From: Parietichytrium sp. I65-24A
Lineage: Eukaryota > Sar > Bigyra > Thraustochytrida > Thraustochytriidae
DNA: 64,000 bases
Assembly (NCBI GenBank): GCA_012862575.1
Contig: BLSF01000068.1
Span: 1 to 64,000 of the forward strand
Reading direction: 5' to 3'
How positions within the stretch are numbered: position 1 is the first letter of the stretch; each line of letters starts with the position of its first letter. Made by a program: the position numbers and the translations under genes. Shown here one piece after another: positions 5,543 through 56,900 of this stretch. Below the pieces are notes generated by a model, which saw nothing but the letters and a program-made list of their open reading frames with translations, had not been told where the DNA came from and made no database searches.

Positions 5543-5596
5543 AGTGTAAGAAGGGAAGCGGAAGTGGAAGGAAGGAAGGAAGGAAGGAAGGAAGGA
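5444..5596 (+). repeat. (GA)n and (GGAA)n tract upstream of the lectin-receptor gene
   Basis: A GA dinucleotide tract with short interruptions (5444-5540) is followed by a GGAA run (5567-5595). It ends about 140 nt before the ATG and is purine-rich on the sense strand, as upstream of several other genes in this window. Confidence 0.85.
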
Positions 5597-5734
5597 GCAA
5601 ATCGATTTCTTGGTTGTGGTACTCGAGTAAGCAGCGGGCCACTCGCGAAAGGGAGCGGCACATCGGAGTGGAGGAGTGGAGGCAGAAGTAGCTGCCCGGA
5701 GCGTTCGTGGGCACGCAAGAGAGCGAAGCGCAAG

Positions 5735-8404
5735 ATGAGGCTGGCGGGTGTGCTGGTCGCCGTGTTGGCGGGGTTGCAGCAGAGCGCCGCGGAGACGGTG
5801 CTGGTGGACATCGACTTTTTTTACCCGAAATCGACGTCGGCGTCGTGCGGGAATGCGGCCACGGTGGTGGACGACGCGAATTGCCTGGCAGAATGCGAGG
5901 CAGCATGCAAGAACTTATCCTCGTGCGCTGCCATTCTGTATAACGAAGGGACCTGCAAGACGTCCACCAAGCTTTGCGCGGAGAGCGGTTACGACACGTA
6001 CCTGCGCGATTCAGAGAAGAGTCTTTCGTGCACGCAAACAGAGTACGATCTTTACTTTGTTTTGGACGAGTCAGGCTCAGTGGGTGCTAGTAACTACGAG
6101 AAAATGAAGAAATTTTCCGTTGATGTGACCGCCACTATGACCATCAACCCCGAGAAAATCGTCAAGGATATTTACTTCTTGACTTACTCCACAGGAGTGA
6201 ACACGAACAGCAAAACTGCACTATCACCATGCGTCTTTGAGACACAAGTCTTGGACGACGGTTACAACAAGGGAAATACCAATATTCACGGTGCTCTTCT
6301 AGCCACCGCAGATCTTCGCAAGAGCAGCACTGGGTACGCCGCCAACCGCAAGGCCATTGTGGTGTTTATCACTGATGGTGAACCAACCTATTATCAACAA
6401 AGCGAAACCTCGTCCAAGAACTGCGGTACGACCTCGACCTGCAATTATTACTCTCGTCTCGGAGCCCAGGAACTTGTTTCACTCCCCAACACTTTCATGA
6501 TCTACACTATGATCAAGGTAAACAATGCGGACCTTTTTGACGGCGTTGCTGATGACAAGATCTCCAAGATTAGCATTGCAGACTGGACACTCGATAATTT
6601 CGTTCCGGAGCTCAGTAATATCATCGACTCTACGGTGTGTAAAACCGAGTCGCCAACCAAGGGACCAACCCCACAACCAACCTCTGACGCCCCAAGTCTT
6701 GCGCCTACGCTGTCTCCGACCCTCTCACCAACCCTGGAACCGACCACCCTTGCCCCATCCACCTGCACTGTCCTGGACAATGGAAAGGAGTCAATCGCGT
6801 TTCCTTCTGATGATTCCACTCTATCCAACATCCAAGTCTCCGACGGTGCATCCAGGGGAGTCACCCTGAACCTGACTAACTCAGGTTTCTCTCAGGCATC
6901 GACTTGGGTGTTTCACAAGAGCCCTCAAAACCTGGTGGGAGGCTTTCTCACCACCTTTTCCATCTGGAAAGAGGATCTGGCAAACACCAATGGATTCGCT
7001 TTTGTAGTGCACCGAAATGAGGATGGCCTTGTCAACCTGCCAATGAGTGCCGGAAGTGGGCTTGGATATGCTAAAATTCCCAACTCAGTCGCGATCGTGT
7101 TTGATTTCTGCTACAACAGAAAGGACTACGTTGGTGTCGGCTGTGAGCCTAGTTACTCTGTCCACATCAACCCGGCAGACGAGTCTCAGCTTCCTGCAGA
7201 GGAATTCACTACGTTTGGTGACGAGTATCAGCTTGAGAATGACGTTTTGAATTTCGAGATTCAATACATCTCCCAGAGTAACATGCTTCGAGTTTCCCTT
7301 GACGGAGTGGTTTTTCTCGACCAGTGGGACTTTCGCCCTGCGGATGTTCTTGGGGGTGTTGACGCATATGTTGGATTTACTTCTTCTACTGGGGATGTGT
7401 CTGCCATTCAAACCATCCAGAACTGGTCATTCAAGACCATGCCTATCGTGTATGAAAACACTGCACCAGTCGACTTGTATGAGGACGCTGCTGCAAAGGA
7501 GCTGGTCGCTGATGGAGAGACTGAGGTTGGGTTCAGCGTTCAGCTCAATGATTATTGCAACACCTCGATCACCTATGGCTCATACCCACAGCTCATGGTT
7601 GCAAAATTTGTCGAGCTCCTGGACGACTCCGACACTTCCAGCCGCTCAACCGCTAGTTCGCGATCCTACATCGTTGGAGGCGATAAGCCGGACATCTTGA
7701 ACGCCACCATCGTGGATAACAGCGACGGAACCTACACCGCCGTTATGAAATCGACCGTGTCCAACACCTCGTACGCATTGTACGCTGCGTACGGAGAGAA
7801 CTGCGATTATGACATCACTTACACCCTCGTTGGGGACATTTACGTCGCAGAAGTCACCCCCAGTGCCGAAGATGTCTCGAAGTGCTTTTACTCTCAAGTG
7901 TCTCGCGCCATTGACACAGTCGATCCTCCAGTCAAGCCAACCTCCCCTCCTATACCTGAGAGCGATAACGCAGTACAAGGAGATGACACCAATATTGCTG
8001 CCATTGCAGTTGGCGGAGGATGCGCCGCTGCTGCTTTAATTGCAGCTGCATTCGTCATGCAGAGATTCCGCAAAAAGTGGCAGTCAGACAAAGCTTTCAT
8101 CGAGGACGGCCACATCGCAAATCTTGAAAGGGATGTCACTTACGCTGACGATGCTGCCCTTGGTGCTCTCGGCGGGCGTCTGCTCTCCACCCATCAGGAA
8201 CTTCTTCGCGAAAAGAAACAAACCATGAAGGCTCCTCGTACCGGTGAGATTGCTCAGCTCGAGCAGGAGCGCAACGAGCTCCAAGACATGCTTCGCCAAA
8301 GCAAGATGGACCAGCAGATGCAGGAAACTACGGCTCGACGGGAATCCCCAAATCCTATCTTCGATGCGTCGAACAAGAAGGAGTTTGGTGGTGGTGAAGT
8401 TTAA
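5735..8404 (+). CDS. Membrane receptor with vWA and L-type lectin domains
   Basis: An 889-residue protein. The start at 5735 is preferred over an in-frame ATG at 5564 because a signal peptide follows it directly (MRLAGVLVAVLAGLQQSAAE) and the upstream frame is translated GGAA repeat. Domains in order: a small Cys-rich PAN/apple-like module (about 33-95); a von Willebrand A domain (about 105-290) with an intact MIDAS (D111-E-S113-G-S115, later ITDGEP); a Pro/Thr/Ser stalk of the PTxxPS kind; a legume-type lectin domain (about 380-585, with GFAFVVH and AIVFDF strands); a filamin/Ig-like domain; one transmembrane helix near 770-795; and an approximately 100-residue cytoplasmic tail with a Gln/Glu-rich coiled coil. 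The layout suggests metal-dependent adhesion plus carbohydrate binding at the cell surface (inference). No introns seen. Confidence 0.88.
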   Translation: MRLAGVLVAVLAGLQQSAAETVLVDIDFFYPKSTSASCGNAATVVDDANCLAECEAACKNLSSCAAILYNEGTCKTSTKLCAESGYDTYLRDSEKSLSCTQTEYDLYFVLDESGSVGASNYEKMKKFSVDVTATMTINPEKIVKDIYFLTYSTGVNTNSKTALSPCVFETQVLDDGYNKGNTNIHGALLATADLRKSSTGYAANRKAIVVFITDGEPTYYQQSETSSKNCGTTSTCNYYSRLGAQELVSLPNTFMIYTMIKVNNADLFDGVADDKISKISIADWTLDNFVPELSNIIDSTVCKTESPTKGPTPQPTSDAPSLAPTLSPTLSPTLEPTTLAPSTCTVLDNGKESIAFPSDDSTLSNIQVSDGASRGVTLNLTNSGFSQASTWVFHKSPQNLVGGFLTTFSIWKEDLANTNGFAFVVHRNEDGLVNLPMSAGSGLGYAKIPNSVAIVFDFCYNRKDYVGVGCEPSYSVHINPADESQLPAEEFTTFGDEYQLENDVLNFEIQYISQSNMLRVSLDGVVFLDQWDFRPADVLGGVDAYVGFTSSTGDVSAIQTIQNWSFKTMPIVYENTAPVDLYEDAAAKELVADGETEVGFSVQLNDYCNTSITYGSYPQLMVAKFVELLDDSDTSSRSTASSRSYIVGGDKPDILNATIVDNSDGTYTAVMKSTVSNTSYALYAAYGENCDYDITYTLVGDIYVAEVTPSAEDVSKCFYSQVSRAIDTVDPPVKPTSPPIPESDNAVQGDDTNIAAIAVGGGCAAAALIAAAFVMQRFRKKWQSDKAFIEDGHIANLERDVTYADDAALGALGGRLLSTHQELLREKKQTMKAPRTGEIAQLEQERNELQDMLRQSKMDQQMQETTARRESPNPIFDASNKKEFGGGEV

Positions 8405-8848: not shown

Positions 8849-10210
8849 CTAGAGCCATGGCTTACTCTCCTCTAGCTTGCGAGATTCCCTTGATCGCATG
8901 TGTGGCAAGCTCCGTCTCTCAACAACCAGTCTGCTGAGATACATCGCCACGACGCCAGCCAAGAAATAGAACACAGGCCTCCACATCTCATGGGAGACAA
9001 ACGACCTCAGATTGTCTGCGCCGCCGAAAGCTAGTGGTACGTCGTCATGTCGCGGGCCTACTTCCACAACAGGGCAAAAATCAGTCATGCTTGCCGGGCA
9101 CTTTCGAACCACGTGAAGAGTCGAGTTTACTCTTGTATAGTTGTTATCAACTACAAACGTTTCTCCGCTGTACGGCTCTGCGTCCTCGCTGGCCAAGAAT
9201 AGTGCGAGCGAGCCGAGCTGCCTTGGGTCGATGGGCGGCCATAAGTGCTTTCCGTATTTAAGGGGCAACCTAGGGTCGGACACGCGCTCGTCCGGACAAG
9301 GGCATCCATACCCAGTTCCGCCCCATGCACAGGTGCCGTCATGGATGATGGCCGAATGATTGTTCTTGTCATAGCACTGGTACATTTGCAAATCATCCAC
9401 GTTGACTAAGGACCCATCTTTGCCAATCTTTGTTCCGCGGATCTGGTTCCATGTCATCGGGGTGTTGACCAGACCAGGCGCAATAACGTACGAGCGTAGT
9501 TCCCCGGCATACATGGCCGCAATAGACCGCGATAGCTGAATGATCCCGCTCTTGGAGATCCCGTACATGGCGCAGCCAGGGCAAGGCGTAAGGCCTTCCT
9601 CTGAAGACAGGGTGATCATGACACGATCCGGTGAGTTACTAGGTCTGCCTTGTTCGTTAGTGGCAAGGCGCCAAAATCGAGTTGCCTCCGCTGTTACAAA
9701 AATCGCGCCGTACAAATTATTCATTATCGCATCAAATTTGGACCCAAATACTTCATTCGGGACCTCCCCAAGACCTACGCCGATGAAGCCCGCATGCCCT
9801 GCCGTGTTCATCACAATGTCCAGCTGGCCGCCGAACAGTTCATCAATATGCTTGAACGCCGAGCGCACCTGTGTGCGAACTGAAACGTCAGCGATGATCG
9901 CCTCTGCGGCTGGCGCAACAGGAGTTTTTTTTTTACTGCTGCAATGACTTTGATCCAGCTTTCGCAGCTCTTGCAGCGCTAGCTCTACCTGCAAGTAATT
10001 CCGAGCCACGATGACCACCTTTGCGCATTCTTGCACAAACATAGCAGCCGAGGCGAAGCCAATGCCGGACGATCCGCCGAACACCGCCACATACTTGCCA
10101 TCAAATCTATCGCCGCTGTAAGCCTTGTCCACAAAGCTCAGCGTATCCGGCAGCTCTGCCGTCTCCGCGCCCAGCAGCTGCGCGGGGAGCTCCACCACTC
10201 TGGCGCCCAT
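8849..10210 (-). CDS. Short-chain dehydrogenase/reductase with C-terminal membrane helix
   Basis: A 453-residue classical SDR, an NAD(P)-dependent oxidoreductase. The Rossmann core starts near residue 38 (KYVAVFGGSSGIGFASA, the TGxxxGIG-type motif with GGSSGIG). MNTAGH stands for the NNAG motif. A Ser in TLSSEEG and the YGISK pair (YxxxK) supply the catalytic residues, and APGLVNTPM is the usual PG turn. Two insertions lengthen it beyond the family's roughly 250 residues: about 20 residues with a KKK/APAA stretch near 95, and about 90 residues after PMTWNQ that contain several cysteines (CYDKNN, CAWGGTGYGCPC). A hydrophobic helix near 405-425 (FYFLAGVVAMYLSRLVV) followed by basic residues suggests a membrane anchor. 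It is codirectional with the MCAT gene upstream, so it could serve a shared acyl pathway, but that is inference. The substrate cannot be told. Confidence 0.88.
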   Translation of the reverse strand: MGARVVELPAQLLGAETAELPDTLSFVDKAYSGDRFDGKYVAVFGGSSGIGFASAAMFVQECAKVVIVARNYLQVELALQELRKLDQSHCSSKKKTPVAPAAEAIIADVSVRTQVRSAFKHIDELFGGQLDIVMNTAGHAGFIGVGLGEVPNEVFGSKFDAIMNNLYGAIFVTAEATRFWRLATNEQGRPSNSPDRVMITLSSEEGLTPCPGCAMYGISKSGIIQLSRSIAAMYAGELRSYVIAPGLVNTPMTWNQIRGTKIGKDGSLVNVDDLQMYQCYDKNNHSAIIHDGTCAWGGTGYGCPCPDERVSDPRLPLKYGKHLWPPIDPRQLGSLALFLASEDAEPYSGETFVVDNNYTRVNSTLHVVRKCPASMTDFCPVVEVGPRHDDVPLAFGGADNLRSFVSHEMWRPVFYFLAGVVAMYLSRLVVERRSLPHMRSRESRKLEESKPWL

Positions 10211-10960: not shown

Positions 10961-11869
10961 TTAGACCAGCTCAAGGGCGACGCCGGAGTCTGGGGCAGTT
11001 CGAGAGAGCATGGAGTTAATTTGGCTCACCTTGCCAACCTCAAAGAGATGCTTGGGTCTCTCATCCGAAGCGATTGTGGCAAGTATCTGCTCCCATTGGA
11101 CCGTGGTCACAACCTGCTCAGCAAGAATGCCTAAGACATCGGCATCGGAAGGGTACGGTGTGCCAGTGGTGTTGGCAAGAACAATGTTGTTCTCAAAGCC
11201 TCGGGAAGGATTTACTACTCCGCGCAAGTTTTCGATGGCTTGACTCGCAGGCTTCATTGCCAGAGTGTGAAATGCACCGTTCAACTCCGTCCTCATCACG
11301 GCCTTCTCCGCAATTTCTGGGACCCAGTTCACCTGTTGGAGCTCCTCTTTTGAACCGGCAATCACTCGACACCCCGGGAAGAGCTTACTCGCTATCTGGC
11401 ACGGAATCTTGCTATCGTCTGCAACGCCCATCAATGTCATCATTGCTCCACGCGCACCGGTGTCGCATGCAGCCTGCATTGCCTTCGCCCGCGCTTTGAC
11501 AACCCGGAAGCCGTCCTCAATGGTGAGTTTGCCCGTGGCAATGAGAGCTGTGATCTCCCCGACCGAGAACCCCGCACAGACGATTTGCACGTTCGGATTC
11601 TGGAAGAGATCTGGCCTGCTCTCTCGCAGACTCTCGAATCCATCGAGACCTGCGGCAACGATTGCGAGCTGCGAAAACTCAGTTAGCTTGAGCTGCCTTT
11701 CCGTGACCCTTGACACGTCCAAGCCAAACACCTTTCGCGCGGCGTCAGCAACTGATCTGCTCCTGATCGGATCTCTGCACAGCCACGACACATCGCTCCC
11801 TTGCCCTTGGAACACCACGTACACCACGCTTTTGATCTCGCTCTCGCTCTCTGCCTGCCCGCCTCCCAT
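10961..11869 (-). CDS. MCAT: Malonyl-CoA:acyl-carrier-protein transacylase (mitochondrial MCAT type)
   Basis: A 302-residue protein. The first ATG in frame is at 11869; the frame is open four codons further, with no ATG. It transfers malonyl from CoA to the phosphopantetheine of an acyl carrier protein. Visible features are the GQGS oxyanion motif; the nucleophile elbow AGFSVGE, with Phe in place of the usual His as in animal mitochondrial MCAT; VVKARAKAMQ, whose Arg binds the malonyl carboxylate; LFPGCRVIAG; and NGAFHTLAMKPA with the catalytic His. Length fits FabD/MCAT enzymes. No mitochondrial presequence is visible (MGGGQAESESEI is acidic), so either a 5' exon is missed or the enzyme is cytosolic. 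Its place next to a PKS that lacks an extender AT makes trans service to that PKS plausible. The housekeeping role in type II fatty acid synthesis is equally possible. Confidence 0.9.
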   Translation of the reverse strand: MGGGQAESESEIKSVVYVVFQGQGSDVSWLCRDPIRSRSVADAARKVFGLDVSRVTERQLKLTEFSQLAIVAAGLDGFESLRESRPDLFQNPNVQIVCAGFSVGEITALIATGKLTIEDGFRVVKARAKAMQAACDTGARGAMMTLMGVADDSKIPCQIASKLFPGCRVIAGSKEELQQVNWVPEIAEKAVMRTELNGAFHTLAMKPASQAIENLRGVVNPSRGFENNIVLANTTGTPYPSDADVLGILAEQVVTTVQWEQILATIASDERPKHLFEVGKVSQINSMLSRTAPDSGVALELV

Positions 11870-11992
11870 CTTCCCACTCACTCACTCAATCCTTCAAGTC
11901 ACCCCGGGCCTTCCGACTTTGCAACGTACTCCTCCCAATCAAAATCAATTCCTTCTTCTTTCTTTGTGCAAAACAACACCAACAACAACAAT

Positions 11993-15905: not shown

Positions 15906-18900
15906 ATGCTTGCGCTTGTCTTTTCCGGAGTTGGCTCCGTCGGGAACAAGTCGACGGCGCTTCGTCCGTTGATTGAGTCATTGGCGTTCTACTCTGTGGC
16001 TCAAGACATCCTGGCGCAAGAGCATGGCTTCGATCTCGATGAGATGTGGGGCCGTGTCTCTGCATTGAATGAGAGCGAGGCCCCGGAGAGCGCTGTAGAT
16101 GAGGCCTTGGTCCAATTCATGGTTCAGCTTGCTGGAGCTCGCGTCGTGGAGTCCGCCGTCGGAGAGGAGACCCCAATCGTTGCTGTCGGTCACAGCATTG
16201 GTGAGATTGCCGCAGCGGTTCACGCCGGGTACCTCTCGCTTCAGGACGGAATCAAGGTCGCCGTATCACTTGGCACGGTGACAAACAAAATTCAGGGTGG
16301 CGCGCTTTGGTATGGCCCGCTCACGGAGGAAAGTAAGAATTTGGCGAGCGTCAACTTTAAGGACGCGGAAGGAAACCTAATCGGTGCCACAGCAGTGCTC
16401 AACCCTGCTGACGAGGCCCCTAGTGCAACCCACAAGAAGGTCCGCACCAACTTTGCTTGGCATCATAGCGCCTACCAGGAGTTTGCATCCACTTTGGAAT
16501 CACTCTTGAGTGCAAAGTTGGGCAAGGAGTCCGCTAAACGTCTCCCACTTCTCCTTTCCTCTCTTGGAGCGGCGGCCAACCACGAGACTGTGTTGGACGC
16601 AGCGCATTGGGTGCGTTGGATCCAGAACCACGTCGATTTGCGCCAGACCCTTGCATCGCTCGGTTCTGCGTTTGATGTCACTCAGGTCGTGGAGCTTTCC
16701 GCGTCCCCGCTTCTTGCCGGTGCGTTGCGCTCTTCTGTAAAGAGCGCAGAGTATCTTGCGCTATTCAGCCGCGAGAGTGTGCTCAACATGGAATCTCGCG
16801 ACCGCGTACTTGTTGCAGCAAACTCAGCAGCACTCGAAGCGGAGATTCGCTCTGCTGTTGGCACGCTTGGTGAGGCTCTTGACCTTAACAAGACCTGGAC
16901 CGACAACGGCCTGGACAGCGTCAGTCTCGTAGCTACGGCAGCGAAGCTTGCAAAGTCTGGGGCGTTCCCGCTCTTGCAGCCACAAGACTTGTACCGCTTT
17001 GTCACTCCGCTCAACCTTATCAGCGGATTTGCACGCCAGGCGTCCGATTCTACTCCTGCGCCTGCGCGTAACATTGCTCAGGGAGGAGACCGCAAGTCTG
17101 TCGTGGTTCGTGCCATGAGCTGCCTGTTGCCAGGGAATCTCAACACCGCGAGGCAGCTCTTTGCGTTTACGAGCTCTCAAGGTGACGCTGTGCACTGCGA
17201 AACAGGATTTGACCAGGGCAAGCAACCTGCTGGATATCTCAGCGAGATTTCGATCGAGTTTGCCAAGTTTGGCCTCTCTAAGAGTCAGGTTCGCACCATG
17301 GACCCTCAGCAGGCTCTGGTTCTCAACTGTGTGGACAAGCTCATGGAGGAGCATAACATTATGCAGCTCCCAGCACGTACTGGAGTCTACATCGGGGCAT
17401 GGAACCAGGAGTTTGAGGGCGACCGCACTTCTGTCTTTTACCCTACCGGGACGAACCCAAGTCTCATTGCTGCTCAGGTGAGTCACGTATACCGTCTTCA
17501 CGGCCCTTCCAAGGTAGTGAACTCTGCTTGCGCATCTTCGCTGGAGGCAGTGCTCGAGGCCTTTCGCGATGTCCAAAGTGGCAAGGTGGACTGTGCGATT
17601 GCTGGCGGAGTCAACCTCCTCTGGGATCCTGAGTTCTCCAGCTGCATGACCCAATCCGGGTTTCTGGGCAAGGGCGGCCGCTGCAGAACCTTCGACTGCC
17701 ACGCTGATGGGTATGTCCGTGCTGAGGGCTGCGGGCTCGTGCTGCTTATGCGCAAGGAGGATTGCGAAGATGGTGCAGGATTTTACGCTGAAATCCTTGG
17801 AGGAGCTTCCAATCACAACGGTGGCCGTTCGGCTAGCATCACTGCACCGAGCCCGATTGCCCAAGAAGAGTGTATTCTGGAAGCGCTTAGGGATGCTCAG
17901 CTTCGTCCTGACCAAGTTGACTACCTCGAGTGCCACGGAACTGGCACTAAAATTGGCGATCCTATCGAGTACAGCGCTCTTGCAAAGACCGTCGGCAAGG
18001 ACCGGAAATCTGACACCCCTTGCTACTTGGCAAGTGTGAAGAGCAATATTGGGCATCTAGAATCTGCTGCTGGAGTTGCCGGGCTAATTCACGCTGCCAT
18101 GGTGCTCGAAATGGGAACCGTCCCTCTCATGGGCAACTTTACTTCCGCCAACCCGTTGCTACAAGTATGTGACGGACTTGCCCTGGGCACCACTGGCAAC
18201 ATCACGTCAAAGAACCTCAATGTGGCGGGTATCTCTTCGTTTGGCTTCGGCGGAAGCAACGTTCATCTCATCATTAAGCGAGGTGAGAACGTTCCTGTGG
18301 TCAAGCCGCTCGCCGCGACTCTTAATCGTGAGGAGTTGCATATCTTCGACCGGTCCAGGCCTGAGGTCGCCCCGGGAGCAGCTCGGAAGCAAAAGTTGGC
18401 AGTTCAATACGGCGCAGACTCAAGCACCGAGGAGGTGCGCACCTATGCTGCCCCACAGGCCCAGCGAAAAACTACTGGGTCGCAGTCTGCTTTCTGGAAT
18501 GTGGTCCGGTCCGTGGCTGGAGAAGTTCAGCCAGGTGATGGAATTCTTCGAAGCGGACTTGACTCGCTTGGCCTCACCGAACTGTTTTTGCAGATTGAGC
18601 AGAAGCTTGACGTCCCTGCAAGTGACCTAAGCAAGTTTCTCGGTGGCAGCTTCAAGTGGCAAGACCTTGCAAATCAGTGCATTACAGCAGACGCATTTGA
18701 GGCAGAGCCGGAGCCTGTCCTAGTGGAGAGTCCAAAAGCAGTCAAACCTGTCGTCAAAGTACAGCAGGCAAGCGCCCCAGCATCCGAGAGAGAGGACCGC
18801 TCCTTGGCTTACTTCACCTGGGCAAAGCCTCGATTTCAAGGAATCCGCACCACGCATGTCGGTTCTCTCCCGCGCCCTCGCGACAAGGAGGAGCAGTACA

Positions 18901-21776
18901 AGGACTTGAACAAGACGATCCGCAAGCAGTTGGACCTCGGTATCGCAATCATCAACGATGGTGAGATTGGTCGCGCTGACTATGCCGGAGCTGTGTTGGA
19001 ACGCATGACCGGCTTCGAGGATCAGTCTGAGCACGGCGCACCTCAGCCACGCGACTTGGAGGAACTCCCATGCGTGGCTCGCAGATTCCTCGTGCGAGCC
19101 GGACTGATCACTCTCAATGCCAAGGTTAAGACGTGCAATCCACACTGCGTTGGGCCAGTTCGCTACGTTGGCCACGCAGCATTGCAGCGCGAGCTCGAGA
19201 ATGTGAGGGCAGCGCTCTTGAGCAACAATGCAGGTCTGCCGGAGCAAGCATTCTGGACTGCGCCTTCTCCAGGAACCATCGCCATGTTCTTTGAGTGCCA
19301 CGACTCTAAAACCTACCCGGAGTACAAGGACTACCTGATGGCTGTTGCGAAAGCGCTTGGGGAGGAGTACCGCGCAGTCGTTGAGGCAGGCTTTACGCTG
19401 CAGGTTGACTGCCCAGACTTGGCCATGTCTCGCCACACGCGCTTCAAGCGTATCGGGCTCTCTGCTTGGCGCAACGTAGTGCAGCTTCACGTTGCTGCCA
19501 TCAACCATGCTCTGGAGGGAATCCCGCGTAGCAAGGCCCGCATCCATCTTTGCTGGGGAAACTACAGCGGCACTCATCATCGCGACGTTTCTTTCGCCGA
19601 GTTCCTTCCGCTGGCGCTCAAGATCAATGCGCAAGGCTTTGGCTTTGAGTCAGCAAACAATCGTCACGCTGCTGACTTTCGATACTTCTCCAACGTCAAG
19701 CTTCCAGAAGATATCGTCTTGTACCCTGGCGTCGTCGACACCTGCTCGCAGAGCGTGGAGAGCGTAGAGCTTGTGTGTGAGCGTATTTGCAACTTTGTCA
19801 AACTTGTTGGTCCTGACCGCGTAGTTGCAAACACTGACTGTGGATTTTCTACCACCGCAGAGGCACAGGGGCTCCCTTCAGAGGTGGCGTGGATGAAACT
19901 TCGTGCGCTTGTTGCAGGGGCTCGCTTGGCCACTCACCTTTCAAATCCAAAGGTTGTCCCTGCATTCCTGCCAAGGCCACTGAAGAGGGTCTTTTACTTT
20001 TGCAACTCGATGGATGCCGCAGTCAAGAACCCAGTTGAAAACGGTGATATGACCTTGGAGACTCGCGTTGTTCTCACTCAGAAGCTCACCGCTATTGACG
20101 CAAGTGTTGTCGCTCGCCACGTGAGACTTTTCATCGATGTTCCTGTCGTCTTCAAGACCGATGGCTCCAAGCACAGCGAAATGTTTGCTGAGGCTGTGAA
20201 GGCAAATCTCGCTGACGGTGAGCGCCGCAACTGCCCAGGCTTCCCGCTTGAAGATGTCAAGGCCCTTGATCAACAGCTTGAGCAGAAAGACATGGTTCTG
20301 AGCACTAAAGGGGCCAAACTCAACGCCTCATACCAGATTGTGGTCGTTGGCGCTGGCATCGTTGGGCTCTTGGCTGCAAAGCGGCTCGTGGAGGCTGGTT
20401 TGGATGTGGCAGTGCTGGAGAAGGAGGAGTTTGTCGGTGGCATTTGGACGACCTTTGCGAATGCAAAGTCGCAAGTCAACAGCTCGGAAGGATCTTACCG
20501 TGTGATCGATGAATACCGCATGAGGCCAAACCGTGACCACAGCACAACCCACGAGGTTCGCACTGACATTCTTCAAATTGCCAAAGGCTTGAAGGAAGCT
20601 GGGCGCTTGTTCACTGCCACTGAGGTCGCCGGAGTGGAGCCTCAGCCTGGCTCACCAAGGAGGTACACGATCAATCTCAAGGACGGCCAGTCTATTGAAA
20701 GCGCTGGGGTGGTGCTTGCGATCAACGACCGCGTTGGAGTTCCTCGCCCTACAGCTTGGAAAAACCAAGAGTGCTTCGAGGGCACGATCTTCGACGGATA
20801 CGGTGGAGACGCAGACCACAAAAACGTGGAGTGGGCAGGAAAGCGTGTTGTGATCGTGGGTATGGGTGCATTCGCAATTGAGAATGCTCGTACTGCCTTG
20901 GAGCACGGTGCGAGAAGTGTAGTTGTATTGGCTCGTCGCCACGGAACTGTGTGCCCAAAATTCATCGACTACATTAACTTTGTCAACCGCCACGGTATCG
21001 AGCATAGCGGTGGCGAGATGGATACCGCCAACAATAGCAAGAACATGTTTTTGTGGCGAAAGCTATACGAGACCAGTGGGACCACCATGCCGGAGTGCTG
21101 GCTGGATCTCATCAAGCATCCTGGACATACCATCAGTGTGTCCGATGTCTGGTTCGTGGGTCACCATTTGGGTAAACTGGAGACGCGCTTGGGAGAAATT
21201 GGACACTTTGTGGAGAACGGTATTGTAGTGAGCGGCTCGGACGATGTCATTGAAGCTGATCTTGTCGTTCGCTGCACAGGGTTCGAGAGGAATGCAAGTC
21301 TCGTTCCAAAGCTCACTCCTTACAAGATGATGTCCCCTATTAATTACTTGGATGAGAACTGCATGTACTTGGCGGACGCCTTCATCGATGATGACGCTTT
21401 CAACTCATTCTTTGGTTCGAGCGTTGTCGAGATGTCCAAGTTTTACATTATGGTGTTTGAGCACTTTTTCAAGGGCCAGAACACTGATATTTTGAGCTCA
21501 AAAGCTTTGCACCCGACCGTGGATGTCCAGGACCGCAAGTGGACTGATTACATCTCCGGTGCTGAGTTTTTAGTTGAAAACGTGCCGGAGCTCAAGGCGA
21601 AGGCAAATGCGCTCCTTAGGCAAAGGTACCGCGATTTCACCGACGCACAGACGGTGACCGAGTACGTGGATGCCAACAAGAGGGAGTGGGACGAATTGCA
21701 CGACCTTTTGACTCAGGGTGCCCTGGAAAGCTCCTGCCGCCTTCCGTACCCTGACTGGAACACCCCAAAAATTTAA
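15906..21776 (+). CDS. Hybrid polyketide synthase: AT-ACP-KS-ACP-MetE-like-FMO
   Basis: A 1956-residue intronless protein. Acyltransferase, 1-300: nucleophile S97 in GHSIGE and catalytic His in FAWHHSAYQ; the position that binds malonyl carboxylate as Arg is Leu (VAVSLG). ACP1, 305-375: phosphopantetheine Ser338 in GLDSVS. Ketosynthase, 397-792: C542 in NSACASS, H677 in CHGTGT, K712 and H717 in KSNIGHLE, so active. ACP2, 855-925: S887 in GLDSLG. MetE-like methyltransferase, 965-1345: GSLPRP start motif and zinc-type ligands H1214/C1216 (HLCWGN), E1248, C1312 (DCGF). Flavin monooxygenase, 1475-1956: FAD site GAGIVG (1482-1487), NADPH site GMGAFA (from 1652). The FMO signature FxGxxxH reads F1624-E-G-T-I-F-D, with Asp for His. 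There is no thioesterase, KR or extender AT. Probably it makes one condensation from a non-carboxylated starter and malonyl supplied in trans, then does methyl or thiol transfer and oxidation. The product is unknown. Confidence 0.9.
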   Translation: MLALVFSGVGSVGNKSTALRPLIESLAFYSVAQDILAQEHGFDLDEMWGRVSALNESEAPESAVDEALVQFMVQLAGARVVESAVGEETPIVAVGHSIGEIAAAVHAGYLSLQDGIKVAVSLGTVTNKIQGGALWYGPLTEESKNLASVNFKDAEGNLIGATAVLNPADEAPSATHKKVRTNFAWHHSAYQEFASTLESLLSAKLGKESAKRLPLLLSSLGAAANHETVLDAAHWVRWIQNHVDLRQTLASLGSAFDVTQVVELSASPLLAGALRSSVKSAEYLALFSRESVLNMESRDRVLVAANSAALEAEIRSAVGTLGEALDLNKTWTDNGLDSVSLVATAAKLAKSGAFPLLQPQDLYRFVTPLNLISGFARQASDSTPAPARNIAQGGDRKSVVVRAMSCLLPGNLNTARQLFAFTSSQGDAVHCETGFDQGKQPAGYLSEISIEFAKFGLSKSQVRTMDPQQALVLNCVDKLMEEHNIMQLPARTGVYIGAWNQEFEGDRTSVFYPTGTNPSLIAAQVSHVYRLHGPSKVVNSACASSLEAVLEAFRDVQSGKVDCAIAGGVNLLWDPEFSSCMTQSGFLGKGGRCRTFDCHADGYVRAEGCGLVLLMRKEDCEDGAGFYAEILGGASNHNGGRSASITAPSPIAQEECILEALRDAQLRPDQVDYLECHGTGTKIGDPIEYSALAKTVGKDRKSDTPCYLASVKSNIGHLESAAGVAGLIHAAMVLEMGTVPLMGNFTSANPLLQVCDGLALGTTGNITSKNLNVAGISSFGFGGSNVHLIIKRGENVPVVKPLAATLNREELHIFDRSRPEVAPGAARKQKLAVQYGADSSTEEVRTYAAPQAQRKTTGSQSAFWNVVRSVAGEVQPGDGILRSGLDSLGLTELFLQIEQKLDVPASDLSKFLGGSFKWQDLANQCITADAFEAEPEPVLVESPKAVKPVVKVQQASAPASEREDRSLAYFTWAKPRFQGIRTTHVGSLPRPRDKEEQYKDLNKTIRKQLDLGIAIINDGEIGRADYAGAVLERMTGFEDQSEHGAPQPRDLEELPCVARRFLVRAGLITLNAKVKTCNPHCVGPVRYVGHAALQRELENVRAALLSNNAGLPEQAFWTAPSPGTIAMFFECHDSKTYPEYKDYLMAVAKALGEEYRAVVEAGFTLQVDCPDLAMSRHTRFKRIGLSAWRNVVQLHVAAINHALEGIPRSKARIHLCWGNYSGTHHRDVSFAEFLPLALKINAQGFGFESANNRHAADFRYFSNVKLPEDIVLYPGVVDTCSQSVESVELVCERICNFVKLVGPDRVVANTDCGFSTTAEAQGLPSEVAWMKLRALVAGARLATHLSNPKVVPAFLPRPLKRVFYFCNSMDAAVKNPVENGDMTLETRVVLTQKLTAIDASVVARHVRLFIDVPVVFKTDGSKHSEMFAEAVKANLADGERRNCPGFPLEDVKALDQQLEQKDMVLSTKGAKLNASYQIVVVGAGIVGLLAAKRLVEAGLDVAVLEKEEFVGGIWTTFANAKSQVNSSEGSYRVIDEYRMRPNRDHSTTHEVRTDILQIAKGLKEAGRLFTATEVAGVEPQPGSPRRYTINLKDGQSIESAGVVLAINDRVGVPRPTAWKNQECFEGTIFDGYGGDADHKNVEWAGKRVVIVGMGAFAIENARTALEHGARSVVVLARRHGTVCPKFIDYINFVNRHGIEHSGGEMDTANNSKNMFLWRKLYETSGTTMPECWLDLIKHPGHTISVSDVWFVGHHLGKLETRLGEIGHFVENGIVVSGSDDVIEADLVVRCTGFERNASLVPKLTPYKMMSPINYLDENCMYLADAFIDDDAFNSFFGSSVVEMSKFYIMVFEHFFKGQNTDILSSKALHPTVDVQDRKWTDYISGAEFLVENVPELKAKANALLRQRYRDFTDAQTVTEYVDANKREWDELHDLLTQGALESSCRLPYPDWNTPKI

Positions 21777-26444: not shown

Positions 26445-28748
26445 CTATTGGCTCTTTGGGACGAACTTTTTGATCTGTAGAGGTTGGCCTTCCAAGAGAT
26501 GCACAGGTTGTTGAAGGACGCTGTTTACAGGATTCTTCTCCTTGAAAGTGACGAACGCGTAACCTTTCGTCTTATTTTCGAATTTCACCACTAGCTTTTC
26601 GAGAGGTCCAAAGGTTTCCAAGTATTCGCGCAAGTTTTCCTTCGTTACGGCCTCCTGCAGACCTGTCACGAAGAGGTCATAAGAAGCGCTAGACTTTGGC
26701 TTGTCGTTAGTTTTCCTGACTCGCTCAGCCTGGGCAGGTGGTGCTGCGGTCGTGATATGCGAGAATTTGCACTCGTCGCCGCGGGTGCAATTTCCCTTCT
26801 GGAAGGCGAAGCAAAGCTTTTTCTTGCTGGTCTGTGACTTTAGAGGCTCTCCAGAGTCGGTGCGGTCGGATTGCTGGCTCGCTTCGTGGAGAAATTTGCA
26901 CTTGCTCCCGCGCTTGCACTCTCCTCGCTGAAATGCAAAACAAACTTTTTGCCCAGAAGCAGATTGTCCATCGTTTTCGCTTGCCGCTAAATTTCCCGAG
27001 TCCGAAACAGGCGTTTGGTCGTTGTTGCTCGGGGCAGATTCATCATGGCCAGGTAATTGATGGGCAAATTTACATGCGTCCCCGCGCTGGCATTGACCTT
27101 TGGAGAACGCAAAGCAAACCTTTGGGCGAGCCTGCCGTCGCTCTCTCGGTTTGGCGCTCGCCGACTCGCCACTCGCAGAATTAATCGTGGATTCCTGGCT
27201 TTGGTCCACCTCGGGACGGGGCTCCTGGGACATCTCGTGACTGAATGTACAAGCATCTCCTCGTTTACAGGAACCAGTCCGCCGAAACGCGAAGCAAACG
27301 GTTGGCTTGCCCGCCTCAGGAGGAGAGGACTTCTTCTTGTTCTTCCTTTTGCTTTTCTTGAGCTCACTCTTCTCCTCGCTCGAATCCTGCGACGCGGTTC
27401 CTTCCTCGGACCCCTTACTTTTGCTGTGCTTTCGCGGGCGCACAACTTCTTCCCATCCGTCCGCATCGCCGACAGGGTTCTGATCTTCATTCTCCGCGTC
27501 CATGCCGTCCATGAGCGAGTTGAGCTCAGGAGCCGCCTCGATGCTTTCTCTGTAAGCCTCTTCGATAGCTTTCCTCTCGAGTTCTACGGACTCCATATGT
27601 GCTTCGTGGTCGAGCTTTGCTTTTTTGAGCGCAGCCTCGTACTTTTCTATCTGCGCATACGGAGGCTCGTCTTCCAAAGGGTTCCAAATGAAATAGGAGG
27701 TGTGCGGCTGAGGGCTCTCCATTCCGTTGCCGTCGTTGAGGGAACAAGAAGAGAGAATGGATGCATTGGACTGGGAGCTAAGACGGCTCCGGTTGGTGTG
27801 TGAGAAAGCATCCCTTGAGAAGGCCAGGTCAATGAGAATGATGCTGATGTCATCTCTCTGGGACCCAGCCTTCTTGTACGCCGTGGAACCGAGATTCTGC
27901 ACGGCGTTCTGCGGGTGCTTATGCCGCACTAATGCAAACGCTTGCCGAGCAGTGAGTACATCCCACAGCCCGTCAGAGGCGAGGATGAGCTTGCAAGGCA
28001 AAGCAGAGATGTCGTCTTCATCGTACAGGCGCGTCACCAAGTTGCGGATCGCTGCCACAGGGACAGCCTGGATCGCTTCCCTGTCACCTAGAGTACGGGA
28101 CATCATCAAGCCACCCGGCCACAGGCGGAGAGGATCGGAAGGGTCGTCTTTCTTGGAGCCTGCTCTTTCAACTTCTCCGCCTTCGCTAGTGACGCGCTCT
28201 CGCTCGTCCTTGTTGTTGTCGAGGCGATGATCTTCGTTGAGGCGAGCCAAATGCGGGCCGTGACCAAACTCGGCCCACGCATGAGAGTCGCCTACATTTG
28301 CCACCGTGATACGCGCCCATCGCGAGGCCACTTCAGACCGCGAAAGGGTGACCACTACCACCGTGGCGGTAGTTCCGGAGCTCGAGAACTTTTCACAACA
28401 CCGCTCATTCAAGACGCTGAACAACTTTGTAAGCGCCTTTGGTAAGAGCTGGTGCTCCCAATTCACCTCCTTGTTCGCGGTCGCCAGCTCGGCGAATTCG
28501 GCGTCCAAGGACTCTTTGAAAACGGTGCTTGCCGACTTTCTGCATTCAGCTGCAGCATTCGCTCCACCGTGTCCGTCAAACACTGCAAAGAACGCAAACT
28601 TGGTGGTTCTCCCACTCTTGTCGGGCCAGTCCCAGCTCAAATCCGGCTCAGATACCACAAAGTCCTCTCCTTTTACGCTCTTCTTGAACGAATAGTGCTC
28701 CAAACAGGGCCACTTTTCGCCCAGAGCGCTAGGTATCGCTTCTTCCAT
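26445..28748 (-). CDS. PP2C phosphatase fused to four CCCH zinc fingers and an RRM
   Basis: A 767-residue protein. The first in-frame ATG is at 28748. Residues 1-310 are a PPM/PP2C Ser/Thr phosphatase domain with the metal-binding core: FAVFDGHGG, VANVGDSHAW, GGLMMSRTLGDREA, ASDGLWDV and a final QRDDISIILI. A charged linker follows, with a short coiled coil (IEKYEAALKKAKLDHEAHM) and KKSKRKNKKKSS. Four CCCH fingers come next, each opening (V/L)CFAF: CFAFRRTGSCKRGDACTFSH has C-x8-C-x5-C-x3-H, and the other three have C-x7-C-x5-C-x3-H. The C-terminal 80 residues are an RRM (DLFVTGL as RNP2-like, KGYAFVTF as RNP1). The protein can therefore probably bind RNA and dephosphorylate bound partners, for example in mRNA processing or decay (inference). 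The reading frame is continuous, so the fusion is not an artefact of joining exons. Confidence 0.9.
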   Translation of the reverse strand: MEEAIPSALGEKWPCLEHYSFKKSVKGEDFVVSEPDLSWDWPDKSGRTTKFAFFAVFDGHGGANAAAECRKSASTVFKESLDAEFAELATANKEVNWEHQLLPKALTKLFSVLNERCCEKFSSSGTTATVVVVTLSRSEVASRWARITVANVGDSHAWAEFGHGPHLARLNEDHRLDNNKDERERVTSEGGEVERAGSKKDDPSDPLRLWPGGLMMSRTLGDREAIQAVPVAAIRNLVTRLYDEDDISALPCKLILASDGLWDVLTARQAFALVRHKHPQNAVQNLGSTAYKKAGSQRDDISIILIDLAFSRDAFSHTNRSRLSSQSNASILSSCSLNDGNGMESPQPHTSYFIWNPLEDEPPYAQIEKYEAALKKAKLDHEAHMESVELERKAIEEAYRESIEAAPELNSLMDGMDAENEDQNPVGDADGWEEVVRPRKHSKSKGSEEGTASQDSSEEKSELKKSKRKNKKKSSPPEAGKPTVCFAFRRTGSCKRGDACTFSHEMSQEPRPEVDQSQESTINSASGESASAKPRERRQARPKVCFAFSKGQCQRGDACKFAHQLPGHDESAPSNNDQTPVSDSGNLAASENDGQSASGQKVCFAFQRGECKRGSKCKFLHEASQQSDRTDSGEPLKSQTSKKKLCFAFQKGNCTRGDECKFSHITTAAPPAQAERVRKTNDKPKSSASYDLFVTGLQEAVTKENLREYLETFGPLEKLVVKFENKTKGYAFVTFKEKNPVNSVLQQPVHLLEGQPLQIKKFVPKSQ

Positions 28749-29202
28749 TCTCACTTTTTTCTGCTCCGCACGTCACAACCCGTGAAACTCCGAGGTACTT
28801 TTCACCTAATAGCAGCTACACCCACGCACACGCACTCCACACGAACACCTGTCGCCAACTTTTTCGCACTTGCACATCCAGAACTATCCGTCCACTGCGC
28901 CACCTGACGGGGAGTGAGTTCAGCCACACTCAACCTTTTGCCACAACAAACAGTCTACTTTCACGGTACTCGGTACTCTTTCTCGCCAAAATCCCAAGCT
29001 GCTCTCGTCAACTGCCCCTGCTTCTTCCCTGCTCCCGACTTGTGCCACCACGTACTTGCCCAGCTACTCCGTCCTCCGGAGTAATAAAGTGCGCTCCAAT
29101 ACTGCACCGCACTTGCAGTGTCCCCGCGTCGGCCAATTGCCAGCCTACCTTCTCCCGGTTTCTCCGACGCCCTCTGCGCCCTCTGCCCCCCTCTTCCACT
29201 GC

Positions 29203-53935: not shown

Positions 53936-56900
53936 ATGAAGACAGCGTTGCTTCTAAGCGGCCTCGTGGCCTCGGCGTCTGGCGCAAGAAATGTGTTGAA
54001 CGAGTATCTCCAGGGCAAGGTTTTTGGTGCGATCCCCGGGCCTTGCCCCGACGAAAACGACAAATGCTATGCAGACTATGACAACCTCCCGATGGGAATC
54101 CAGGATGTCACTGTCTGTGTCTTCAAGAACTCGAACGTATGCGCCCGGCTGGGCGACCTCATGAAGGCAGGTAGTCTGGAGATGTGGAACCTTCAGTGCA
54201 AAAACATTGCCGTCGAGAGCGCTTCATTGGAGCAAACACTGGAAGATGAAGATGACATTGACACTTTGATGAACCTCGACAATCTGCACCTCGCTTGCAG
54301 TTTGCGTGCGAATATCTACAAGCTCACACTCGCTCTTGGGGACACTGACGGGACTGCGGAGGACACCGAGAGCTTTCGCATTATCGCATCCATGAAGAAC
54401 ACTGACATTTCATTTCCAAACTCTGGTGCGTACGGAACCATGAGTACCAAGGTTGCTTTGGACCTTGACACTGACAAGGCAAATGGCGAAACGTTCGCGG
54501 AGTCTCTCCCATTTGAAGTTACCTTACCTTACGAAAAGTGTAGCGTGGACGTTGGGCTCGGGATCGCCCTTAAAATCGAGCAGTTCACTGAACTCCAGTT
54601 CTGCGCTTATGTTGGTGCATTCCTCGGCGACTCGACTGGTTGGAGATGTATTGACATTGCGGGTGGCGTGCTCGACTTTGTCAACGACATTTTTGACATT
54701 GGCGGTGTTCTCGGATTCATCGCAAGAATTCTTGAAGCATTTTTGGGTGGAGTTGTGTGCCAGTTCTTCGAGGAGATGGCGATTCTTAGTGGACCACCAG
54801 AGAGAGACGGTGTGCTAAACGTCGCATTGAAAGAAGTCAAAAAGGAAATCGACGAATATGCAGCGTCCCCAGAGCTGGATCCTTCCAATTTTGACAGCGA
54901 TGAATATCTTCTCTCCAGCGGCATCAGCAACTCGACCCTGCAGAAATCTGCAGACTTTTCCCAAAACACTGCAATCGAGCTCACTTCTGTCGCTCTGAAC
55001 AGGTGGCTTGGCGCAAAGAGCACCACCCCGGGGTATGAGGGAAGACTTGTCGTCGACGAGCTCATTAGTCAACTCACCGAGCCAGACGGCACGATTGTTG
55101 TGGACCTCGCGGAACTGGACATGGTGCAGACCCAAACGTTGGAGCTCAATGTGACAGACATGACCCTGACGATTAGCAAGATCATCATAAGGGATGCCAA
55201 CACCTTTGACACCTTCGAGGTACTGCAAAACTTTTACGATCAAGATGGCTCGCAAGTGAACCGCTTCAAGCGAACTCTTACGAACGCCATCAAAATGAAG
55301 CGTTTTGCCATTGAAGTTGAAACAGATGTACTCCTTGCCCCTGGCAACTGGGTCACACAAGGGTCCCAGACAGAAGCTTTCTCATTCAGCTTCTCTATCG
55401 ACATCGAGGACATCTACACGAATGTTGCTACGCTGGCCTTGTTCCAGTTCGAAAAACTGGAACTTCTTCAGGTTGGCCAACTCACGCAACTAGTGGACCA
55501 TCTCACCAGTGGCGCAGAAGATGCTCCCAACGATTTGCTGAGCGGCATGCTCAAATGCGTCGCTCCGGGATTTTACCTCTTCAACATGACCGACTTGGAG
55601 CTTTCGGTGGGCACCATCGGCAAGCCAACCATTTTGACCGATGGGCTGGAGACCGTGTTCTTGCAGAACTCTATCGACCTCGCCGCTAAAGCGCTCAAAG
55701 GGGCTTTGAAAGAGAAACTCCCAGGAATCGCGCGCAGCGTCTTGCGCACCTCCTTGAACGATGCAATCTACACCGACGTCATTCTCCCAGCTCGCAAAGG
55801 AACCTACCATTGCCCAGCCTGGGCTGGTCCAGTCGAGAACGGAACTATCACCATCGACTTTGCCAGCGGAATTTTCGCATCGGTCTACGAACTGATCAAT
55901 GGCTCCGTCGGGGGAAGTCCGATAACTGACTCCAGCACTGACATCAATGAACTAATTGACGTCGTCATCAGCTATTACGCAGACAACGTCGAAACCTTTC
56001 CGCTCGTTCATCTAGGCAGCGAAAAGGGCGACTGGGCCCTTGCACAAGAGTATGCTTCCACCCTGAAGATCCCGGCATTTCAGCGTCCTGATGACTTCAT
56101 CGCGATGACCGGTCTGGAGGTGAAAAATCTTGACTCCATTTACAGACTGAAGGCGTCGCAGGTGAGCCCTGAGACCGGAGGTATTCTGCTCGACTTTGGC
56201 ATCGGCGGCGACATGGCCCCATATGACACAGTCGCAGGAGTGCAGTTCCCCCTTACTGTGACTCTGCCATTTCATATCAAAACTTCAGACCGGCCAGCAA
56301 TCACTGCAGTAGACGAAGCGTTTTCGTTCGTTCTTGGCCTTGAAGAAGTTGCTATCGAATTTGGCGTGACTGAAACAGTATTGGACCTCAACTTCTTCAA
56401 CTCTCTGCTCGTCACACAGCTGGGTCATCTCCCTTGCAGCCTTGCTGGAGTTAAAAGTTTGACGCTTCTCAAGAATCTGCGCGACCTAAGCATCGGAAAC
56501 ATTCGCCTTCAGCTAAATCGGCCTCAAATTAGCGAGACGCCAGGCAAGCTCACGACTGCGCTTGATGCTGTCGAAGAAATGCTCGGCGCAAGTCCTGCTC
56601 CCGAATTTCCACGTCTCGAGAACTTGCTCAACACAATCATGAAGAACGGTCTCTCTCTGGCACTTGACCAAGCGGAGCTGCTGCCAGAACACTTTGAGTA
56701 CATCACCGCAGACAACTGCACAGACTTTGACCCGCTCAATTTTCAGATTCCAGAGTCTCCGGACTGGGACTACTGCCTTTCCGATGTGGACTTTCCAAAC
56801 TACCCTACTGTTGCAGAGCTCGAAAAGTACGTGAAGTTCGATGAGGAGCACGGAGACGTTGCCATCGATTTGCAGGAAAGCGCGGTACTGGAGCTGATCA

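Follow-up and report, generated by a model that had tools for sequence, protein, structure and literature searches.

A thraustochytrid polyketide synthase with a methionine-synthase-type domain and a flavoprotein, and its three-gene counterpart in Desulfobacterota

This locus raises the question of whether one thraustochytrid gene really joins the parts of a polyketide synthase (PKS) to a methionine-synthase-type (MetE) zinc domain and a flavoprotein and, if so, what such a protein could make. The window, that is, the whole 64-kb stretch of DNA analysed, comprises bases 1 to 64000 of contig C68 in a genome of 42.5 Mb and 172 contigs. The frame at 15906 to 21776 (+ strand) contains 1956 codons without a stop and encodes the following domains in the order AT-ACP-KS-ACP-MetE-flavoprotein, as judged in part from an alignment of 26 (the window protein, 15 eukaryotic-type proteins and 10 bacterial three-gene sets).

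15906 to 16790, + strand: AT of the loading type, residues 1 to 295 (PF00698; alignment of 26; PDB relatives PpsA and PikAI AT)
16803 to 17060, + strand: ACP1, residues about 300 to 385, S338 (motif, Ser in 26/26; no Pfam match)
17094 to 18305, + strand: KS, residues 397 to 800, C542/H677/H717 (PF00109/PF02801; alignment; tree)
18477 to 18695, + strand: ACP2, residues about 858 to 930, S887 (PF00550; 23/23 rows with letters)
18828 to 19940, + strand: MetE-type zinc domain, residues 975 to 1345 (PF01717; residues in 26/26; model; 3rpd alignment)
19941 to 20315, + strand: small alpha/beta domain, residues 1346 to 1470 (counterpart of the N terminus of the flavoprotein gene in bacteria; no Pfam match)
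20316 to 21773, + strand: FAD/NADPH flavoprotein domain, residues 1471 to 1956 (class B monooxygenase fold; D1630 replaces the His of FxGxxxH)

The longest stop-free stretch obtained by chance was 383 codons (200 shuffles of 64 kb with the same base composition). Pfam placed along the translation, in this order, AT (best at residues 70 to 130), KS (397 to 619 and 627 to 745), one ACP (873 to 906), Meth_synt_2 (1144 to 1319) and FAD/NAD(P) oxidoreductase folds (1476 to 1680). The initial annotation had proposed six domains in one open frame, and the domain search and the intact frame bear this out. Its list of domains was correct but incomplete, as it had missed a domain, about 120 residues long, that separates MetE from the flavoprotein. 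In support of the single chain that it described, other genomes encode full-length relatives whose fused domains follow the same order. The synthase is present in one full-length copy in the 42.5-Mb genome, where the 7 other matches to it were four KS of a second PKS on contig C66, one KS on contig C1 and two weak flavoprotein matches. An artefact, whether an assembly chimera or a wrong frame joining separate genes, is thus ruled out for practical purposes by the same-order fused relatives, the intact frame and the one full-length copy, and the synthase is a genuine single gene.

Elsewhere in the window, a PP2C phosphatase is fused to four CCCH zinc fingers and an RRM at 26445 to 28754 (− strand; Pfam), a combination that to our knowledge is unusual, and a VWA domain and an L-type (legume) lectin domain lie on one protein at 5564 to 8404 (+ strand; Pfam). 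The frame at 53936 to 60535 (+ strand) encodes 2199 residues, in which a signal peptide and membrane stretches seem recognisable by eye; Pfam gave no match at E 0.001. No tRNA or Rfam element was found in the 64-kb window, and PADLOC gave one weak FAD-domain match and nothing relevant.

A protein search with the synthase gave 791 matches among 7992 scored candidates, 120 of the matches being listed. Among the matches listed, fused relatives were found in Hondaea fermentalgiana, two Amoebophrya, Polarella glacialis, Breviolum (labelled symbB, which we take to be that genus) and Chrysophaeum taylorii, together with metagenome proteins. The fused relatives were 33 to 58% identical to the window protein in an alignment of 16 (the window protein plus 15); the protein of Hondaea, itself a thraustochytrid, was 57% identical (P0003, annotated 'Polyketide synthase'). 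The Hondaea, Amoebophrya, Polarella, Breviolum and Chrysophaeum proteins have the domain order and catalytic residues of the window protein, except that P0016 lacks the stretch with H677, and P0020 of C. taylorii shows the full synthase architecture. Some fused relatives differ from the window protein in having tandem ACPs, and P0015 and P0017 in having an additional N-terminal AT. The architecture had been regarded as unfamiliar, a view that no longer holds, as several protist lineages have fused proteins of this kind and bacteria have it as a three-gene cluster; the bacterial counterpart is the new finding. For their part, 94 stretches of viral contigs fit the search pattern, none of which encodes a relative of the synthase. 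In the literature searched, no description of a MetE domain within a PKS was found among the matches listed. The main text of the C. taylorii genome paper names a FAD-dependent oxidoreductase as an atypical domain in a PKS of this species and uses 'methionine' 0 times (PMC10366177); the word is also absent from the main text of two Symbiodiniaceae PKS surveys.

Desulfobacterota encode the domains of the synthase in three neighbouring genes, whose order is that of the fused protein in 11 of 13 loci; the other two loci are cut by contig ends. Gene 1 encodes AT-ACP-KS-ACP, gene 2 a core-MetE-type zinc protein, and gene 3 the small domain plus the FAD/NADPH flavoprotein. A MetE-flavoprotein scan of bacterial and archaeal genomes confirmed 115 stretches, and among the best 80 of these 115 the flavoprotein was present in 12 (L001 to L012). 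Ten of the 12 carry all three genes side by side and two (L005 and L011) end at a contig edge; an eleventh complete set (L118) lies in genome G453. The complete sets are therefore L001, L002, L003, L004, L006 to L010, L012 and L118. The locus titles name Desulfobacterota groups, those of L001, L006, L009 and L012 giving proteobacterium or Deltaproteobacteria only. The domains of gene 1 were assigned with Pfam for L009 and L002, for L118 from its match with the protein of L009, and elsewhere with tblastn of AT and KS.

The MetE gene is the middle gene in 11/11 sets; all three genes lie on one strand in 7 of the 11, and MetE is inverted in L003, L004, L006 and L012. The ACP2 motif falls within the gene 1 frame in 10/11 sets. 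In L003 (4213 to 6943), the gene 1 frame stops ahead of ACP2, and the ACP2 motif is in a different frame. In ten loci, identity to the window protein was 46 to 49% for KS, 41 to 45% for MetE and 46 to 48% for the flavoprotein. Residues 1346 to 1470, the small domain, match the start of the flavoprotein gene in the bacteria, and the borders within the protein therefore match the gene borders. Given the three-gene sets in the same order, the protist synthase is, by its sequence, the counterpart of the bacterial gene set in fused form. An alpha/beta hydrolase lies beside L002 (Pfam) and L007 (by sequence start).

A flavoprotein search scored 482 matches, the best 120 being 61 to 100% identical; the 5 organism-named matches among these 120 came from Deltaproteobacteria, Desulfobacteraceae or Desulfobacterales metagenome-assembled genomes (MAGs). 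Of 291 genomes sampled from the order, 9 have the flavoprotein gene, and 8 of these 9 had come up in the scan before; in the phylum sample it was found in 1 of 395 genomes, namely the query's own. In these searches, only three or four candidates were scored in the genomes listed. On plasmids, 79 records gave flavoprotein matches, all below 60% identity and none covering 80% of the query. The distribution of the three-gene set is patchy.

Trees separated the 26 KS of the family from other bacterial KS (45 of 95 such domains compared) with support of 100/100, and the ten KS of the bacterial three-gene sets formed one clade (100/99). Similarly, the family MetE domains separated from MetE homologues outside the three-gene set (23 of 67 compared) with support of 100/100. 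The protist rows fell into two groups in the KS tree and three in the MetE tree, and they formed one clade in 1% (KS) and 0% (MetE) of 200 bootstrap trees; one protist clade was not rejected by the AU test, which was applied to MetE alone (p 0.073). As the protists were not recovered as one clade, one fusion event and several are both compatible with the trees. From the scattered protist distribution and the form of the bacterial gene set, we infer a transfer from bacteria to protists.

What the PKS part might do can be approached from its catalytic residues. The initial annotation had called those of KS, AT, ACP and MetE intact, and they are indeed kept across the set of 26 wherever the rows carry letters. 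In AT, S97 (GHSIGE) is present in 25 of the 25 rows with letters, P0019 being truncated. Malonyl-type ATs have an Arg in the stretch after GHSxGE, together with a HAFH motif, and this Arg is visible in PpsA and PikAI, the PDB relatives of the AT. At the corresponding position, the window protein has Leu122 and 25 of the 26 sequences have Leu, Ile or Val, with Asn in the truncated P0019; a malonyl-type Arg is thus found in 0/26. Moreover, Trp-His (W185-H186 in the window protein) stands in 26/26 where AFH would be expected. As the AT has no malonyl-binding Arg, it probably loads a non-malonyl, monocarboxylic starter rather than malonyl, which supports the earlier assignment of AT-ACP as a loading unit.

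The ACP1 serine, S338, is Ser in 26/26, and ACP1 was identified by its motif, with no Pfam match; S887 of ACP2 is kept in the 23 rows of the 26 with letters, the other 3 having gaps. KS C542 and H717 are present in 26/26 and H677 in 25/26, the exception being P0016. The single KS followed by a second ACP was found as initially described. The synthase thus has the KS Cys-His-His triad, the phosphopantetheine Ser of the ACPs (ACP1 by motif alone), an AT and one chain, as a type I PKS does, and it has no malonyl-type AT in cis. Tandem ACP motifs after KS, read by eye from alignments together with a motif scan, are seen in L004, L006, L008, L012, P0004, P0008, P0010, P0011, P0013 and P0020. By Pfam, no release domain was found in the fused protein, in any of the three genes of L009 or in gene 1 of L002.

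The missing Arg would also fit a reading in which a sulfonium or methylthio starter (a DMSP-derived acyl group, as in gonyol-type compounds) is extended, with an S-methyl group being put on or taken off by the MetE domain. Dinoflagellates and pelagophytes are rich in DMSP, and fused relatives occur in both; the gene set, however, is also present in Desulfobacterota and a thraustochytrid, neither of which is known to us as a maker of gonyol. Furthermore, gonyol synthases of the BurA type load through an adenylation domain, and Pfam finds none in the synthase. We regard this reading as improbable.

If the AT loads the starter, malonyl would have to come from elsewhere, and one further gene of the window is of note.

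10961 to 11881, − strand: separate AT gene with the malonyl-type Arg and GAFH (Pfam), 4 kb from the synthase

This separate AT scored below the cut-off for fabD and mdcH. Its listed start is GTG, and the eukaryotic start is probably an ATG 12 bases inside it. A short-chain dehydrogenase adjoins it at 8849 to 10210 (− strand; Pfam). It is not the only housekeeping FabD, because a conventional FabD-like gene, apparently of two exons, lies on contig C12. In P0015 and P0017, an additional AT with the Arg is fused ahead of the loading AT (residues 1 to 330), and that of P0015 is 27% identical to the separate AT over 214 residues. The proximity of a malonyl-type AT and the AT fused in these two proteins support, short of proof, malonyl supply in trans, for which the separate AT is a candidate. 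The second PKS of the genome, on contig C66 (L116 and L117), has 5583 residues with four KS matches, KR, a SAM methyltransferase and a thioesterase; as Pfam finds no AT in it, the separate AT may serve this PKS instead.

In the MetE domain, the zinc ligands H1214, C1216, E1248 and C1312 are present in 26/26, and so are the homocysteine-contact positions S987, E1020 and D1168, which in a profile alignment fall on S22, E73 and D188 of selenomethionine-bound 3rpd (3rpd numbering with an offset of 3, worked out here). The zinc ligands are given as H641, C643, E665 and C726 by Price et al. (PMC7857596), and the homocysteine contacts S433, E484 and D599 of the Escherichia coli enzyme as the equivalents of those three 3rpd residues (PMC7857596). 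The predicted model (mean pLDDT 88.3, pTM 0.91) matched the methionine synthases 3rpd and 1xpg with TM-scores of 0.70 to 0.75. The domain thus has both marks of a core methionine synthase/MetE, the zinc ligands and the homocysteine-contact positions. Ligands, Pfam and fold agree with the earlier reading of a MetE-type zinc domain followed by a flavoprotein, and the suggested link to sulfur chemistry is favoured, because the zinc and homocysteine-contact positions are intact.

Among 67 MetE homologues outside the three-gene set, S987 is kept in 66, E1020 in 67, D1168 in 67 and E1248 in 63, so that the contacts indicate the substrate class of the family rather than proving its use here. R1023 is specific to the three-gene and fused set, Lys being present in 67/67 of the outside homologues, and further set-specific changes occur at 1120, 1124, 1279, 1303 and 1317. 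No recurrent neighbour of the MetE homologues outside the PKS set was seen in 6 of 68 loci inspected by eye. The synthase has the only PF01717 match in the genome, and a B12-dependent methionine synthase match lies on contig C58; because of this separate enzyme, the MetE domain is unlikely to be the cell's methionine synthase.

The predicted model of the flavoprotein (mean pLDDT 80.9) matched class B/Baeyer-Villiger monooxygenases and the LbmA Ox-ACP didomain; both dinucleotide-binding motifs are intact, and the class B fold is present. Class B monooxygenases carry the fingerprint FxGxxxH. Its His was found in 0 of the 26 sequences of the alignment set and in 0 of the 196 flavoprotein matches listed (P0121 to P0316, from two flavoprotein searches). 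In addition, homologues of the flavoprotein occur in MAGs of sulfate-reducer lineages, and the Desulfobacterota host lineages are sulfate reducers, mostly strict anaerobes. The missing fingerprint His and the homologues in supposed anaerobes make the label 'monooxygenase' doubtful, and they speak against the oxygenase role initially assigned to the flavin domain. A flavin redox step without O2 would fit the bacterial hosts better than oxygenation.

These data also weigh on two other readings of the MetE-flavoprotein pair. In one, the MetE domain would be a plain S-methyltransferase, acting on a carrier-bound thiol or passing a methyl group to homocysteine, and the flavin would oxidise the thioether to give a methylthio or methylsulfinyl short polyketide. 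The MetE-family fold with its full zinc site and the class B monooxygenase fold are in line with this, S-oxygenation being typical of class B monooxygenases, but the fingerprint His is absent and the sulfate-reducer hosts make an O2-dependent oxidation unlikely. The synthase MetE also lacks the folate-binding half, and no methyl donor is evident; core methionine synthases without that half need other methyl donors (PMC7857596). This reading is, in our estimation, unlikely, if still to be reckoned with.

In the other, the MetE domain would act like an epoxyalkane:coenzyme M transferase, joining an electrophile to some thiol that is not homocysteine; the resulting thioether would be reduced by the flavoprotein. 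Epoxide carboxylation offers a parallel, since there a zinc-thiol enzyme is paired with a two-dinucleotide-binding flavoprotein (2-KPCC). The epoxide:coenzyme M transferase belongs to the same superfamily as MetE (PMC10418091). Against this stand the homocysteine amino- and carboxylate-contact positions in 26/26, the flavin fold matches, which among the best 50 PDB matches are class B monooxygenases and related PKS oxygenases, and the invariant flavoprotein cysteines C1683 and C1790, which form no CxxxxC pair. We hold this second reading to be distinctly unlikely.

The reading that we tentatively prefer, at rather less than even confidence, is one condensation followed by the attachment of homocysteine, activated by zinc, to the chain on its carrier, with a flavin redox step in addition. 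The AT would put a monocarboxylic, non-malonyl acyl group onto ACP1, and the KS would carry out a single condensation of this acyl group with malonyl on ACP2, the malonyl being supplied by another transferase, a role that the AT at 10961 to 11881 may fill. The MetE domain would turn homocysteine into a zinc thiolate, and its sulfur would attack the ACP2-bound chain at the thioester or at an electrophilic carbon; since no release domain was found, attack at the thioester would also free the chain. The flavoprotein would then provide an NADPH-dependent redox step for which O2 may be unneeded. The expected product would be a conjugate of homocysteine with a short chain, or a thioether arising from such a conjugate, so that the 'sulfur-bearing short polyketide' suggested initially is a possible product. 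Against homocysteine coupling, the contacts are kept equally in the 67 outside homologues, and ordinary methyl transfer is as compatible with them.

A more specific form of this chemistry would have the homocysteine thiolate attack the thioester of a beta-ketoacyl-ACP, an S-to-N shift then giving N-(3-oxoacyl)-homocysteine or the corresponding thiolactone, which would be the sulfur counterpart of an acyl-homoserine lactone. We know of no precedent for the release of a chain from ACP by homocysteine thiolate, and we consider this route a long shot. It is just as speculative that sulfate-reducing bacteria would produce such compounds and that marine protists, having taken up the genes and fused them, would do so too.

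Whatever its product, this protist assembly-line enzyme is matched by three small genes that bacteria offer ready-made, and the metabolite thereby comes within experimental reach. If the MetE domain works with the PKS, it would represent a new kind of sulfur chemistry for assembly lines. That carriers are found among dinoflagellates and Desulfobacterota as well as in a pelagophyte and a thraustochytrid suggests some ecological function in the sea, in sulfur metabolism or in signalling, and a flavoprotein without the fingerprint His in supposed anaerobes calls the routine 'monooxygenase' annotation into question.

Among known systems, the best PDB sequence match of the flavin domain is the LbmA Ox-ACP didomain of the lobatamide PKS (8odw), in which a class B flavoprotein also lies beside an ACP. 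FxGxxxH is kept in LbmA, whereas it is absent from the synthase flavoprotein family, and the didomain has no MetE part. A plasmid PKS of Vibrio nigripulchritudo (L081, 6294 to 10190; KR-ACP-flavoprotein-FSH1) likewise has a flavoprotein after an ACP and without the fingerprint His, and its motif GAFAxENxRTALExGA is similar to that of the synthase flavoprotein. The two differ in that the Vibrio protein is a modular PKS with KR and an FSH1 hydrolase, its flavoprotein being 25.8% identical to that of L009, and no methionine synthase is annotated in the 17-kb stretch around it. With the core methionine synthases MesA to MesD/MetE (3rpd, 1xpg), the MetE domain has in common the fold, the zinc ligands and the three homocysteine-contact positions, but it is 17 to 20% identical to 3rpd and 1xpg and is fused to, or encoded beside, a PKS. 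The Desulfobacterota set, finally, has the same domains in the same order as the window protein, encoded by separate genes rather than on one chain.
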